Assembly (NCBI RefSeq): GCF_002024165.1
Contig: NZ_MWQN01000001.1
Coordinates: 620,001 to 684,000, forward strand
Direction of reading: 5' to 3'
Length of the DNA: 64,000 nt
Source: Embleya scabrispora
GTDB lineage: Bacteria; Actinomycetota; Actinomycetes; Streptomycetales; Streptomycetaceae
Below are positions 49,120 through 55,388 of this stretch, piece by piece (the first letter of the stretch is position 1; the number at the start of each line of letters is the position of its first letter). A model generated the notes under the pieces. It saw only the letters and a list, made by a program, of their open reading frames with translations, was not told where the DNA came from and ran no database searches. Made by a program: the position numbers and the translations under genes.

Positions 49120-49647
49120 TCAGTGCAATTCACCCTCCGTCTCCGAGTGCCCCACAACCTCGGCCGGGACCACCCCCGTCGACGCGGGCAAATGCATCGT
49201 CATCCGCACCACCACGCCCTCGGCACACTCGGCCACCTCGACCTCGTCGCACAGCGCCCGCGCTATCCACAGTCCACGTCCCGGCGTCTCCTGCTTGTCG
49301 GTCAGCCGAGGAAACGCGCGTCGACGGCAACCGCCGTCGCTACGACCGGCGTTCGCTCCGCCCCCCTCGTCCCCGATCGCGTGGATCTCACAGACCACCC
49401 GTCCGTCCCTGGGCACACAGCGCAGCAGCGCGGGCCGGGAGTCCGGGGTGACGGCGCACGCGGCGATCTCGTGTACCGCGAGCACCAGGCAGTCGGGGCG
49501 GTCGTCATCCAGGCCGACGGCGTCGGCGTGCCGGCGCACCACGGCGCGGACCAGACACAGGTCGGACGCGCCGAACGGCAGCACCTCCACCGGTCCGGCA
49601 CCGATCCGCGCACGGGCGTGGGCGCGATCACGGTTCGGGCCGGTCAC
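49120..49647 (-). CDS. anti-sigma-factor-type ATPase (RsbW-like), degenerate N box
   Basis: The 175-residue protein has a GHKL ATPase fold as in serine-kinase anti-sigma factors: 'LCLVRAVVRRHADAVGLDDD', then 'CLVLAVHEIAACAV' where active members have E-L-V-T-N-A, and 'ETPGRGLWIARALCDEVEVAE' as the G2 box. The missing Asn of the N box argues against normal ATP hydrolysis. Its GTG overlaps the stop of the MEDS-STAS gene by 4 bp, so the two are coupled and likely form a partner-switching pair. Confidence 0.75.
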   Translation of the reverse strand: MTGPNRDRAHARARIGAGPVEVLPFGASDLCLVRAVVRRHADAVGLDDDRPDCLVLAVHEIAACAVTPDSRPALLRCVPRDGRVVCEIHAIGDEGGGANAGRSDGGCRRRAFPRLTDKQETPGRGLWIARALCDEVEVAECAEGVVVRMTMHLPASTGVVPAEVVGHSETEGELH

Positions 49648-50552
49648 TGCGCTCCCCCACTACACTCCCCGGAAGGTCGGTCCTCGTCCAGGATCAGGCC
49701 GCCGGCCCCACTCCACCCGAGCAGGTCGACCACCTTGCGGACCGCCGGTCCCGCGGCCCGCAGGACCAGGTGCCGGTCCGGGCCGAGCGCGGTGGCGGCC
49801 CGATACAACGACTCCATCGTGCCGAGGTCGGCGAACTCCAGTGCGGACAGGTCGACGACCAGGTCCCGGCCCGAGTGGGCCATCGCGCGCCGCAGTGCGT
49901 CCTCCAGCAGGTCCCGGGTGCCCACGTCCGCCTCACCGACCAGGCGCAGTCCCTTGGTGGTGTCGGTGACCTGGAGGGTGGGCGGACGCGCGCGCCCGGT
50001 GCCGGCGACGAGCGGGTGCAGCCGTTCCTGGGCGTCGATCTGTACCGAACTGAACTCGCGCGGATCGTACAGGCAAATGCCCATCGCCCGGCGGCTCGGC
50101 AGGCCGAGGCCGGCGAGGCGTTCGAATTCGAGCAGGGCCGCGTGTTCGACGCCACCTGCTCGACCCCACGTCATGTCGCCGCATACGCGCAGACCGCGAA
50201 AGCCGTCGGCGAGGGCCTGATCCACCGCCGCGAAGAACGTCTCGGCCATTCCCTCGGGCGTGAACTCGCCCTCCCACAACGGCGTTCGGCCGACATCGAC
50301 GACCACGAGCGAGCCGTCGGCCTCGCGGTCGTCGGGTCGGGTGGGACCTTCGGACAGCGTACTCATCAGCCAGGCCCGGTCGCGCCTGCCGAGCAGGCAC
50401 AACACCCGGTCCTCGGCGGACAGTCCGTCCCTGATGTAGCTGTGCACCGCGAGCCGCGTGACAGCCTCGTCGGCCGACACGAAGCAGCAATGGCTGCCGT
50501 ACTCCATCGCTCCCACCGCGGCCACCGTGGCCCCGGCCTGGGAAGTGTCCAT
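49644..50552 (-). CDS. MEDS-STAS regulator (anti-sigma antagonist type)
   Basis: The 302-residue protein has an N-terminal MEDS (DcmR-like sensory) domain (about 15-185: 'GSHCCFVSADEA', 'YIRDGLSAEDRVLCLLG') and a C-terminal STAS domain (about 200-300). The usual STAS phospho-site D-S-S-G is replaced by 'FADLGTMESLY', so a Ser phosphorylation switch of the standard kind is not possible; the Thr might serve. It is co-translated with the RsbW-like ATPase. 'AGGGGGC' lies about 9 nt before the ATG. Similar pairs regulate sigma-B-type stress responses in Streptomyces. Confidence 0.8.
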   Translation of the reverse strand: MDTSQAGATVAAVGAMEYGSHCCFVSADEAVTRLAVHSYIRDGLSAEDRVLCLLGRRDRAWLMSTLSEGPTRPDDREADGSLVVVDVGRTPLWEGEFTPEGMAETFFAAVDQALADGFRGLRVCGDMTWGRAGGVEHAALLEFERLAGLGLPSRRAMGICLYDPREFSSVQIDAQERLHPLVAGTGRARPPTLQVTDTTKGLRLVGEADVGTRDLLEDALRRAMAHSGRDLVVDLSALEFADLGTMESLYRAATALGPDRHLVLRAAGPAVRKVVDLLGWSGAGGLILDEDRPSGECSGGAQ

Positions 50553-51070
50553 CTGCGTATGCCCCCTGGTCGTGACGCGCCCCGGGCCGGGCCCGGGGCC
50601 CCCGTCTCGCACCAGACCGTAGTACCCGACGGGCACACCACCGGGCGCGAACAGTCAAGAAAGCTTCTTTCGGGGGCACCAACCCACCGGGCAGGGCACA
50701 ATCTTTGGTTTCCGGCCGGCACCTCGGCCGGAGCGGCACCGGACCGGCCACCCGACCGGGGGGAACCGGACACGGGATGCGGCGGCCCCGACCCGGACCG
50801 CCCGGCGGCAGGCCCGTCGCGTCGTCGACCGCGCCGGCCGGCCGATCGTGAACCCGATCGGGTGACACCGGCATCGGTTGGCCCAATACCGCGTGGGTGA
50901 CGGTCGTACGGCGACTAGCGTCCTGACGAATCCCACTCGTCCCAGGGAAGACATTGACCACGCATGCCCCGGCGCAGCGCGCCATCGGGCCCGACTCGCC
51001 GCGCGTCGACACCGTCGACGTGACGTCCCGTCAGGCCACGTGTGAACACCTGCAAGGAGTTGGCTGAGCC
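50553..51070. other. gene-free divergent interval
   Basis: These 518 bp separate the MEDS-STAS and reductase/wax-synthase genes. Part of it (50,650-50,720) is less GC-rich and contains AAGAAAGCTTCTTTC, a near-palindrome. It should hold both promoters; I cannot place -35 and -10 boxes with confidence. Confidence 0.4.
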
Positions 51071-53296
51071 ATGCGCGTCGCCATCACCGGAGCCACCGGA
51101 TTCCTCGGTCTCCATCTGCTCCGCGAATTGCTGGACCGCCACCGTACGATCACCGTCCTGTCCCCCGCCGGCTCGCGCGGCGCCCTCGACCGGATCCGGG
51201 CCTTTCTGGAAGTCACCGCCGCTCCCGACGAGTTGGTGCGGCGACTCCCCGAGCGGCTGCGGATCGTCGAGACCGATCCGACCTTGCCGCGACTGGGCCT
51301 GGCCGGGCCCGAGTTCACCTCGCTGGCCGACTCGATCGATGTGATCTGGCACTGCGCGGGCGACCGCCGACCCGACGCCACGATGGCCGAGTTGTGGCCC
51401 GACACGGTTGAAGGCACCCGCCACCTGCTCCAGTTGGCCGAGGCGGGTCGGCGGCGTCCGCGCGTGTTGCACATCGGCACCGCCTATGTCGCGGGCGCCC
51501 GTCGCGAGGGCACGATCAAGGAGCAGCCGGCGGACGACTCGGCGGGGTTCGAGAACGACTACGAGCGGGCCCAGTACGAGGCGGAGACGCTGGTCCGGGA
51601 CTGGGCGGCACGGCTGGGGCGTTCGGCGTTGATCCTGCGGCCGACCACGCTGGTCTCGGATCGTCCCGGGGTGCCGGCAAGCTCGCTGCGGCACGTGGTG
51701 GAGCGGGCCGAGGCGACCGGCGGGTGTGCGGCGTTCGGCTGGGCGGCTCGGCTGCCGGGGCGGCTGCGGCCGGTGTTGCGGTTGCCGGCTGCGCCGGACG
51801 GCCGGCTCAACTTCATGCCGGCGCACGAGGCGGCGCGGGTGATGACGCGGTTGGCCGATCTGACCGGCTCCGGCGGAGTGGACACCTACCACGTACGGCA
51901 TCCGCACGACGTCCCGGTCGACGTGGTGCGCGAGGTGCTGGCCGAATTCCTGCCGGTGCGGCTGCGATTCGTCGCCGAGCCGCCCGTGAAGCCGAATGGC
52001 GTGGAACGGCTCGCGGAGGTGCACGCGGCGTGCACGCCGTATCTGACGCACCGTCGGGGCTATGACGACTCGGGGGTGCGGGCGTTGCTCGGCGAGCCGA
52101 GGTCGGCGACCGCGGTGGACCGGGACTACCTGGTGGACTGCGTCCGGCCCGGTCGCGGCGGGCGGCGCGACACGGCGTTGGAGCGGGCGTATCGCGATCC
52201 CGGTCGGGCCGGCCGGGCCGGATCGGTCGAACTCGGCGCCGTACTGCGCTTTCGCGGCCTGGCGCCGACCGTGGCGGACCTGCGTCAGGCGGTGGCGGCC
52301 CGGTTGTGGCGGGTACCGGTGCTGGCCTACCGCTCGGATGGCTCGTTTCGGCGGCGCGGGCCGGTGGACCCGGATCGGCATGTGCACGTGTATCCGGTCG
52401 GCCCGGGACGACTCGGCGCGGCGGTCGACGCGGCGTTGGCGGATCGGCTGCCCCGGGACCGTCCGGCGTGGGAGGCGCGGCTCGTGCACGGCTACGCGGG
52501 CGACGAGTGGGCGGTGGTGTTCAAGGCGCACCACGCGCTGCTCGACGACGCGTCGGTGGTCGAGGTGGCCCGGCGGCTGTTCGGGGTGGAGCCGATCGAG
52601 GCGGCGACGGTGACCGCGCTCGGGCCCGCGGTGCTCGGTGTCCGCGGCCACGCGCGCCGGCTGTCGCCGCCGTCCACCCGGCCGTTCGCGACCCGGGGGG
52701 CGACCGGCACGCGGCGGATGGCCTGGCTGGACCTGGACCCGGAACGCCTGCACGCGGCGTCGCGCCACCGTCGCGGGGTCGGCCCGGACGACGTCTTCCT
52801 GGCCGCGCTCGCGGGCGCGCTGCGCATGTGCCCCGGCGTACCGTGGCGGCGCGGAGTGCGGCCGGTCCGGGCGCTGGTGCCCTCCCCGTCCGGTGCGATG
52901 GGCGCCCCGGAGCCGGGCAATTCCGCCCGGCCGGCCCGGGTCCGTCTGCCGTGCGATCAGGCGGACCCGATCCGTCGCCTGCACCTGGTCGCCGAGGACA
53001 AGGCCCCGCCCGTCGACCGCTGGGGCTTTCGTACCGCCATGTCCCCCTGGCAGGTCGACCTGGCCGCCGGCTTCGTCCACGACTGGCCCCGGCACTCGTA
53101 CGCCTTCCGCGGCTCCCCGGTGTTCGACGCGATCCCCCTCGGCGGAGTACCGCGCAGCGCCCCGATCGGCGTCTTCCTCGGTTCCTTCGACGGCACGATG
53201 CACATCACGGCCCTGGTCGACACGTGTCTCCCGGCCGGGTTGGCGGACGATCTGTGCGCGGCGTGGTCGGACTCCCTGGCCGAGCTTTCCCCATAG
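51071..53296 (+). CDS. fusion of acyl-reductase-like SDR and wax-ester synthase/DGAT domains
   Basis: The 741-residue protein joins two enzyme types. Residues 1 to about 340 form an extended NAD(P)-binding domain like carboxylic-acid/fatty-acyl reductases: GATGFLG at 7-13, 'IDVIWHCAGDRRP', 'GTRHLLQLAEAG', 'LHIGTAYVAG' and 'FENDYERAQYEAE'. The catalytic Tyr is Y164 but the Lys four residues on is Gln (Q168). Residues about 365-741 match WS/DGAT acyltransferases: HHALLD at 487-492, 'GPDDVFLAALAGALR', 'PEPGNSARPARVRLPC' and a typical C-terminal 'GVFLGSFDGTMHITALVD'. Acyl reduction to alcohol followed by esterification would give wax esters, but the Lys loss makes the first activity doubtful. AAGGAG lies 11 nt before the ATG. 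It is a single-gene unit with a strong terminator. Confidence 0.7.
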   Translation: MRVAITGATGFLGLHLLRELLDRHRTITVLSPAGSRGALDRIRAFLEVTAAPDELVRRLPERLRIVETDPTLPRLGLAGPEFTSLADSIDVIWHCAGDRRPDATMAELWPDTVEGTRHLLQLAEAGRRRPRVLHIGTAYVAGARREGTIKEQPADDSAGFENDYERAQYEAETLVRDWAARLGRSALILRPTTLVSDRPGVPASSLRHVVERAEATGGCAAFGWAARLPGRLRPVLRLPAAPDGRLNFMPAHEAARVMTRLADLTGSGGVDTYHVRHPHDVPVDVVREVLAEFLPVRLRFVAEPPVKPNGVERLAEVHAACTPYLTHRRGYDDSGVRALLGEPRSATAVDRDYLVDCVRPGRGGRRDTALERAYRDPGRAGRAGSVELGAVLRFRGLAPTVADLRQAVAARLWRVPVLAYRSDGSFRRRGPVDPDRHVHVYPVGPGRLGAAVDAALADRLPRDRPAWEARLVHGYAGDEWAVVFKAHHALLDDASVVEVARRLFGVEPIEAATVTALGPAVLGVRGHARRLSPPSTRPFATRGATGTRRMAWLDLDPERLHAASRHRRGVGPDDVFLAALAGALRMCPGVPWRRGVRPVRALVPSPSGAMGAPEPGNSARPARVRLPCDQADPIRRLHLVAEDKAPPVDRWGFRTAMSPWQVDLAAGFVHDWPRHSYAFRGSPVFDAIPLGGVPRSAPIGVFLGSFDGTMHITALVDTCLPAGLADDLCAAWSDSLAELSP

Positions 53297-53308: not shown

Positions 53309-53345
53309 GGTTCGATGGCACCGACCGGGTCGGTGCCATCGAACC
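53309..53345. terminator. bidirectional terminator, 17-bp perfect stem
   Basis: GGTTCGATGGCACCGAC pairs perfectly with GTCGGTGCCATCGAACC around a 3-nt loop, 12 bp after the fusion gene stop and 44 bp from the stop of the converging gene. Confidence 0.85.
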
Positions 53346-54024: not shown

Positions 54025-55257
54025 CTACACCAGCAGCCGCCACACGTCCCGGTCGGCGGTGCTGCTCCAGACCGGGTCGCCGTGGCCGTAGTCGGGGATC
54101 ACCGTGAAGGTCACCTTCGGATTGCCGCCGTCCCGGATCAGGTTCGCGCCTTGGGGGTGATCGCCGCGGCCCAGGGCGGTGTTGATCCAGGTGACCTCGG
54201 CGCCGATCGCCGACCAGTCGATGCGGTACACCGATTCCTCGCCCGCCCAGATCGCGGTGAGGTCGCGCAGCAGCGCGATCGGGATCAGACCGCCGCCGAA
54301 GCGGGCGGTGGCGTCGGCCCAGGTCGCGAGCGGGGTGTGGGTCAGGGCGTACCGGTCGTCGGACGGTGTCGCGCCGAAGGCGAAGGTGCCTGCGGCGAAG
54401 CCCTGTTCGTAGATCCAGTTGGTCGCCCCGGGCAGCTTGGCGGTGTGGACCAGGGCGAAGTGCGCGAGAGCGGCATGGGTGAACCGACTCGCCGGATCGA
54501 CCGGACGAGGGACCGCGGAGGCGCCGTTCGGGTCGCCCACGGCACGCGCCAACAGGCCTTTCAGGCCCGGGTCGTTCGCGTACACCCCGCTCGCGAGTTG
54601 CGCGTCCAGCGCCGCCCTGGTCCGCGCGGCGCGGACGGCGAGGTCGCCCTCGTACGGGCCGGTCGTGTCCAGCACCATCACCCGGCGCGGCCCCGGCGCC
54701 CGATCCGCCGCCAGGTCGAGGGCGAGCGCGGCACCGGCGGAGTGGCCGAGCAGGTCGTACGGCACCCGCAGCGCAGCGTCGACCGCGTCGATCACCTTGC
54801 GGGCGTCCCGCTTGTGCGCGGCCAGGCCCCACTCGGCGGTGAGGTCGGCGGCGGTCGCGCCGTTCTCGCGTGGCGAGATGCCGACCACCAGGTAGCCGCG
54901 CGTGCGCAGGTGATGGGCGAGGTTGTGGGCGGTGGGTGTGAAGAAGTTCGACGCGAAGTCGAGGCCGCCGCCGGGAAGCAGATAGGCGACGCGCCGGGGC
55001 ACGTGCCCGGTGTCCGCGACCACATCGACCACCAACGGCACGGCCGCGTCGCGCAGTTCGAGGGTGGTACGGATCCAGCCGGGCCCGTGTTCGCGGCCGC
55101 GCGCGACGAGTTCACCGCCCGAGTCGCCCAGCGCGCCCCCGATCCGCTCGACCGCGGATGCCGCCGGATCCCGCGTCCCCGCTCGCGCGCCGCCCGCCGT
55201 GCCCGCGCCGAGCAGCACCGGTGCCGCCAACGCCGCCAACACTGTTCTTCGCCGCAT
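54025..55257 (-). CDS. Tat-exported alpha/beta hydrolase
   Basis: The 410-residue protein begins 'MRRRTVLAALAAPVLLGAGT', a twin-arginine-type signal, so it is probably exported folded. The hydrolase domain has the oxyanion region 'AYLLPGGGLDFASNFF' and the nucleophile elbow 'LLGHSAGAALAL'. A His near the C-terminus, in 'VIPDYGHGDPVW', completes a plausible Ser-Asp-His triad. The substrate is unknown; esterase or lipase activity is likely. ATG with GGGGGA about 5 nt upstream; longer frames upstream lack a signal-like start. Confidence 0.78.
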   Translation of the reverse strand: MRRRTVLAALAAPVLLGAGTAGGARAGTRDPAASAVERIGGALGDSGGELVARGREHGPGWIRTTLELRDAAVPLVVDVVADTGHVPRRVAYLLPGGGLDFASNFFTPTAHNLAHHLRTRGYLVVGISPRENGATAADLTAEWGLAAHKRDARKVIDAVDAALRVPYDLLGHSAGAALALDLAADRAPGPRRVMVLDTTGPYEGDLAVRAARTRAALDAQLASGVYANDPGLKGLLARAVGDPNGASAVPRPVDPASRFTHAALAHFALVHTAKLPGATNWIYEQGFAAGTFAFGATPSDDRYALTHTPLATWADATARFGGGLIPIALLRDLTAIWAGEESVYRIDWSAIGAEVTWINTALGRGDHPQGANLIRDGGNPKVTFTVIPDYGHGDPVWSSTADRDVWRLLV

Positions 55258-55388
55258 GTGGGTCCCCCGACTCCCGATTCGACCTGCCCGCCCGCACGCG
55301 GACCGGCCTTCAGCCTGCCGACCGCACCCGATCGCGGTCAACGACCGGGCACGGGACATCCGCCCGACGGGCCGGCATCATCGTCACC

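Follow-up and report, generated by a model that had tools for sequence, protein, structure and literature searches.

A thioester-reductase-like SDR lacking its triad lysine is fused to a divergent WS/DGAT-like domain in Embleya

The genome of Embleya scabrispora (G000; 11 Mb in 8 contigs, GC-rich chromosome) encodes a single 741-residue chain in which a thioester-reductase-like SDR is joined to a divergent WS/DGAT-like acyltransferase domain. The fusion is a new and narrowly distributed domain architecture in which both active sites are damaged to some degree. Our preferred reading, held tentatively at a probability of about 0.4, is that of a pseudo-reductase serving as a binding module that feeds a possibly active acyltransferase. 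The gene lies in the 64,000-nucleotide stretch of contig NZ_MWQN01000001.1 analysed in this work (positions 620,001 to 684,000, hereafter the window), with the following features in window coordinates:

51071..53296, forward strand: the fusion gene, with an ATG start, 741 aa and the stop included in the coordinates; full-length orthologues in G001 and G002.
51071..52150, forward strand: N-terminal half, residues 1-360, a thioester-reductase-like SDR with GATGFLG (7-13), T137, Y164 and Q168 replacing Lys (Pfam NAD_binding_4 and alignments).
51572..51574, forward strand: codon 168, CAG, which encodes Gln at the position occupied by Lys in unfused relatives (alignment).
52151..52222, forward strand: the junction, residues 361-384, with poor conservation in G002 and an omega of 0.83 (orthologue comparison).
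52223..53293, forward strand: C-terminal half, residues 385-741, a divergent WS/DGAT domain with the motif HHALLDD at 487-493 (Pfam; profile match to the solved WS/DGATs 7nxg and 6chj).
53309..53345, no strand: perfect 18-bp inverted repeat between convergent genes, a probable terminator hairpin without a T-run (repeat and terminator scan).
50637..51070, no strand: intergenic region common to the fusion and the divergent MEDS-STAS gene, parts of it nearly identical in three species (alignment).
49644..50636, reverse strand: the divergent neighbour, encoding a MEDS-STAS protein, which accompanies the fusion in 3 genomes and was not found in G003 at E 1e-20 (Pfam; search of G003).

Full-length orthologues of the fusion were found in three of four Embleya genomes, namely the window strain, E. 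hyalina NBRC 13850 (G001; 95% identity) and one (G002; 72%) of two further Embleya genomes, the other being G003. The original prediction, made from the DNA letters, had described one chain with two domains, and this was confirmed: the open reading frame at 51071-53296 is uninterrupted, a profile search returned NAD_binding_4 and WS_DGAT_cat, one per half, and GATGFLG at 7-13, Y164-x3-Q168 and HHALLD at 487-492 all lie where they had been placed. The reading of two separate genes as one is excluded by the full-length orthologues in three genomes. A homologue search for the same two-domain order found it, again at full length, in G001 and G002 and in Embleya only among the samples scanned. No further fusion was detected in samples of 394 (family), 394 (class), 396 (phylum) and 391 (order) genomes, which overlap and include G000 and in which scoring covered the two best candidates of each genome at E limits of 1e-15 to 1e-60, and a search across genome contigs returned one fusion locus, that of E. 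hyalina. In G003, an assembly of 1650 contigs (99% complete and 7% contaminated), the order of the flanking genes is unchanged, but two of them are 3.5 kb apart vs 8.1 kb in the window, and this syntenic gap contained no fusion match below E 1.7. Neither a natural SDR-WS/DGAT fusion nor a report on this Embleya gene was found among the matches listed from the open-access literature.

The fusion gene is flanked by the divergent MEDS-STAS gene on one side and by a convergent Mak_N_cap gene on the other, with no same-strand partner. It had been predicted to stand alone and to end in a terminator with a 17-bp stem; it is indeed alone on its strand and the stem is real (18 bp perfect with a 1-nt centre, equal to a 17-bp stem with a 3-nt loop), but no T-run lies 3' of the stem and the terminator scan lists nothing at 53309-53345. 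Around the fusion, no pfaD or PKS match was found in stretches L028 (18 kb) and L029 (20 kb), nor by Pfam on ten window genes. G001 and G002 also carry the MEDS-STAS gene, which was not found in G003 at E 1e-20; with an anti-sigma-like HATPase gene it forms a pair (49120-50636, reverse strand) divergent from the fusion. A short inverted repeat, GAAAGCTTCTTTC, at 50659-50671 near the MEDS-STAS start is identical in three species. A stretch of about 45 bp (50965-51012) a short way 5' of the fusion gene is almost the same in the window, E. hyalina and G002, and a 20-base core of this stretch has an exact match once each in G000, G001 and G002, at the fusion locus, and none in G003. A structured leader element upstream was rejected, its folding being no better than that of shuffles (z -0.20) and Rfam giving no match. 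An alpha/beta-hydrolase-like gene further downstream (54025-55359, reverse strand) had no match in stretches L028, L029, L117 and L118 of other Embleya genomes.

The reductase half was matched by NAD_binding_4 (PF07993) at residues 5-197 (E 7e-35; 120.8 bits against a curated cut-off of 20.1), scored below the cut-off of NCBIfam TIGR01746 (98.6 vs 213.35 bits) and had the MxaA thioester reductase (4u7w) as best PDB sequence match. All three fusions carry the Gly-rich NADP motif GxxGxxG as GATGFLG at 7-13. The Ser/Thr-Tyr-Lys triad is incomplete, with T137 and Y164 kept and Lys replaced by Gln in the window and in E. hyalina (codon CAG in both) and by Arg in G002 (AGG). According to PMC2835699, the Lys aids proton transfer from the Tyr in R domains of this kind. 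Because CAG occurs in both the window and E. hyalina, Q168 is not a one-genome error, and a sequencing error or frameshift at this residue was rejected, given the same codon in two species, Arg in the third and open ORFs throughout. Conservation of the Gln itself, raised in the original prediction, is partial: it is kept in E. hyalina, reads Arg in G002, and Lys is found in none of the three fusions.

The Lys is otherwise nearly universal among the relatives sampled. Y-x3-K is present in 33/33 unfused rows of a 36-row SDR alignment, from which L034, L036, L037 and a weak fragment of L032 had been dropped before counting, and the three fused rows read Q, Q and R. With 7/7 further unfused loci and 3/4 more, the total rises to 43 of 44 unfused relatives. 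The lone exception is the unfused pfaD-locus SDR of G002 (L144, 8767-9950, reverse strand), which has Arg (YERSR) in an ORF split between two frames, for which a real loss and an assembly error are both possible. Since the Lys is missing from the fusions (0/3) and present in the unfused relatives, the reductase half has probably lost its activity or taken on another role, in line with the original prediction. Judged from these alignments, the loss of the Lys accompanies the fusion and is specific, yet it falls within one clade and thus represents one or two events. The rest of the fold is well retained: of the 49 columns invariant in 28 unfused relatives, the three fusions all preserve 41, the Gly motif, T137 and Y164 among them, and eight, including K168, are altered in at least one. 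For scale, of 70 columns that do not vary in the other 25 rows, the three unfused Embleya SDRs differ at 21, with K retained. We infer that the fused SDR half has lost its reductase activity, and the Arg of G002 could leave some of it in that orthologue.

The acyltransferase half is more divergent. WS_DGAT_cat (PF03007) matched residues 423-515 (E 2.5e-12; 47.6 bits vs a cut-off of 23.6), a partial match spanning profile positions 67-164 of 263, NCBIfam TIGR02946 remained below its cut-off (87.3 vs 309.95 bits), and WS_DGAT_C (PF06974) gave no Pfam match in the fusion at E up to 1. Profile A2 aligned with the C-terminal part of 7nxg and of 6chj, the 6chj match covering residues 46-424; this profile also contains one unfused relative (the G729 protein), and searches based on it therefore recover G729 kin as much as fusion kin. 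The HHxxxDG motif reads HHALLDD in the window and in E. hyalina, with H487, H488 and D492 kept and Gly493 replaced by Asp, and HPSLLDG in G002, where Pro takes the place of the second His. That second His is present in 32/32 unfused WS rows of the same alignment, in several of which the first His is replaced, and Ala replaces the motif Gly in four unfused rows (L094, L097, L137 and L140). Both motif His residues are essential, to go by the title of Stoveken 2009 as cited in PMC5407786. The later motifs of the family, also part of the original prediction, were found in part: GN is present at 616-617 and the ND position reads DD. Some unfused WS relatives (L119, L136) have a PLGPxExAFLxYE-like N-terminal stretch that is unrecognisable in the fusion. 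ALERAY (369-374), in a region poorly conserved in G002, may be a remnant of this motif, in which case the apparent absence of about 38 N-terminal residues would be less complete. The Pro at the second His position of G002 means that the three orthologues do not share acyl transfer as a function; the motif residues kept in the window strain make it possible there, as an activity unconserved across the orthologues.

The kinship of the SDR half is clear. Its 18 best unfused Streptomycetaceae relatives (45-49% identity) adjoin, in PUFA-synthase-like loci, a pfaD-like gene and a PKS with KS, AT, ACP, KR and DH domains, as annotated with Pfam on two loci, L080 and the window strain's own L033. A midpoint-rooted tree places the SDR half among the pfaD-linked SDRs, in a group of 31 rows with support 100/97; pfaD adjoins the SDR in all 28 unfused rows of that group and a PKS is seen in 27, the contig of L030 being too short. 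L095, L035, L096 and L144 were left out of the second SDR tree. By gene order, rather than by a KS tree, these loci may be likened to the Type L cluster, which, as described for Streptomyces coelicolor by Shulse and Allen 2011 (PMC3098273), carries pfaD at its 5' end and is placed among the types with uncharacterised products. An SDR lies beside pfaD in all 4 Embleya genomes (L030, L033, L144, L145), with a PKS in 3, the G003 contig measuring only 7.6 kb, and no WS/DGAT-like ORF was found in the four Embleya pfaD stretches. Elsewhere in the window strain (G000:C4:336113-346143; L025, L034), a same-type SDR and a WS/DGAT-like stretch are some 8 kb apart, next to a long PKS-like ORF.

A WS/DGAT-like gene adjoins the SDR at 12 of the 18 best unfused loci. 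Pfam recognised six of these neighbours at E up to 1e-5, and a BLASTP comparison with the WS half of the fusion recovered all 12 at E up to 2e-6, the neighbour at L080 lying just under the Pfam cut-off (22.9 vs 23.6 bits); among the six loci with no such neighbour, L074 ends within 0.8 kb of the SDR. A custom WS profile was trained on 11 neighbour proteins together with the WS halves of the three fusions, so its E-values for these sequences follow by construction. G345 (L073), fetched for its WS match beside the SDR, lies outside the 18, and the seven loci of family f20 (L120-L126) gave no WS match. Descent of the fused WS half from the SDR-neighbour WS genes of Streptomycetaceae was not borne out: in the third WS tree, from which one overlapping L142 ORF had been left out, it falls outside their 28-row group (95/91), and the two earlier trees, the second of them built without the second match of L089 and L093, do not settle its placement. 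The nearest rows by path are the WS genes of family f19, in which G729 has a WS gene directly before pfaD, with no SDR match in the stretch, and G868 and G883 have the order MMPL, WS, SDR, PKS in one direction, with no pfaD match and with SDRs outside the pfaD-linked group. The neighbours at 12 of 18 loci and the f19 arrangements thus indicate that the partnership of the two functions recurs. The relatives fetched have reductase and WS/DGAT as separate genes, bearing out the expectation that these are usually separate proteins, and PMC10351704 likewise describes separate SDR reductase genes adjoining WS/DGAT genes in Pseudomonadota. Base composition was unsupportive of import of one half, with GC3 of 0.89 and 0.91 in the two halves.

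Selection on the two halves was estimated as omega by the Nei-Gojobori method, with bootstrap intervals for the comparisons with G002. For the SDR half, omega was 0.18 against E. hyalina and 0.23 (0.17-0.32) against G002; for the WS half, the values were 0.23 and 0.50 (0.38-0.65), respectively. Around the HHxxxDG motif, omega against G002 rose to 1.04 over residues 481-540 and to 0.82 (interval 0.45-1.86) over residues 470-530. Nine neighbouring genes ranged from 0.09 to 0.47. Both halves are therefore constrained, the SDR as strictly as ordinary genes and the WS half more loosely, least of all at the motif.

These observations are best accommodated if a thioester-reductase-like SDR of the pfaD lineage and a WS/DGAT-like acyltransferase, lipid-tailoring proteins that elsewhere are neighbours in PKS-type lipid loci, became fused and the reductase was repurposed. 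The fused SDR, its Lys gone, would have been kept folded to bind an acyl thioester, perhaps with NADP, and would present or position the acyl chain for the fused acyltransferase, which in the window strain, with both motif His residues and the Asp, could esterify an acceptor. On sequence grounds we infer both the binding role and the residual acyl transfer. Probably, then, the protein has been repurposed for binding or works as an acyltransferase in a single step, and is not a two-step wax factory, because the SDR is without a key catalytic residue and the WS half is eroding. Against this stand the erosion of the WS half itself (Asp at G493, no recognisable N-terminal motif, Pro for the second His in G002), the lack of a PKS next to the fused gene, the position of the WS half, in one tree, outside the group of Streptomycetaceae SDR neighbours, and the Arg of G002, which could leave some reductase activity.

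In a slightly less probable alternative, both halves would be non-catalytic and the protein would act in trans, in the manner of plant CER2, as an acyl-chain adaptor or regulator of a lipid synthase such as that of the Embleya pfaD PKS locus on C3. Neither active site is intact across the three orthologues, yet both halves are under purifying selection (omega 0.18-0.50), and the pfaD-SDR locus is present in all four Embleya, with a PKS in three, while its stretches contain no WS/DGAT-like ORF. There is also a precedent, since the CER2 variants H166A and H166N fully complement the mutant and the catalytic His is dispensable, as reported in PMC5489795. Conversely, the HH and D of the motif are kept in the window strain, and the partner is a candidate only; the pfaD locus does not need the fusion, because G003 has the locus and lacks the fusion. 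The missing second His in G002 nevertheless makes a non-catalytic adaptor nearly as likely as the binding module with a possibly active acyltransferase. A more elaborate form of this idea, a two-domain pseudo-enzyme that has lost both chemistries and would sense acyl chains or set their length in trans as a bacterial counterpart of CER2, possibly controlled by the co-inherited divergent MEDS-STAS/anti-sigma-like pair, is distinctly doubtful.

It is more improbable still that the gene is a decaying relic of former lipid-pathway genes that persists only through the recency of their loss. The fast evolution of the WS half, most evident in the motif region, and the absence of the gene from the syntenic site in G003 would fit such decay, which is nevertheless made unlikely by 741 codons open in three species at 72% protein identity between the extremes and by omega values against G002 (0.50 for WS and 0.23 for SDR) to be read against the range of the nine neighbours; parts of the upstream DNA are also conserved. 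Least probable of all is a working bifunctional enzyme, with the SDR making an alcohol from an acyl thioester by reduction and passing it on to the WS/DGAT half, the channelling put forward in the original prediction: the two functions do co-occur as neighbours in lipid loci and the Rossmann motif, T137 and Y164 are retained, but channelling is left unsupported because the triad Lys, present in 43/44 unfused relatives, is absent from 3/3 fusions and the acyltransferase motif is damaged, as HHALLDD here and by Pro for the second His in G002.

The preferred reading of a pseudo-reductase feeding an acyltransferase can be set beside several known systems. The fused SDR shares its Rossmann motif, 45-49% identity (18 best rows) and its grouping (100/97) with the pfaD-beside SDRs of actinobacterial secondary-lipid PKS loci, but those are unfused, have the Lys and lie next to pfaD, whereas the Embleya fusion stands alone. 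It resembles the WS/DGAT family (PF03007; 7nxg, 6chj) in a profile match along most of the chain and in both motif His residues of the window strain, and differs in being fused to an SDR, in the Gly to Asp change, in the unrecognisable N-terminal motif, in giving no WS_DGAT_C match and in the loss of the second His in G002. Terminal R/TR domains of NRPS/PKS (MxaA, 4u7w) provide the best PDB match of the SDR half and have the same cofactor motif; the fusion lacks the triad Lys and is joined to an acyltransferase instead of a PKS/NRPS. A TR domain has been recruited by the zeamine secondary-lipid synthase, a PUFA-like synthase, according to PMC13291983. The likeness to plant CER2-like proteins, relatives of BAHD acyltransferases, lies in the retention of an acyltransferase-type protein though the catalytic His is lost, here in one orthologue; they belong to another family and kingdom and have no SDR half, and the comparison is an analogy only.

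Among the samples scanned, Embleya alone yielded a natural fusion between this type of reductase and a WS/DGAT-like domain. With one catalytic residue missing throughout the fused clade and the fold still under selection, it is a clean case, and the pseudo-enzyme hypothesis is therefore directly testable. The fusion is a sign that two proteins encoded side by side in secondary-lipid loci with uncharacterised products work together, and suggests that chain release in these loci may be reductive and accompanied by esterification.
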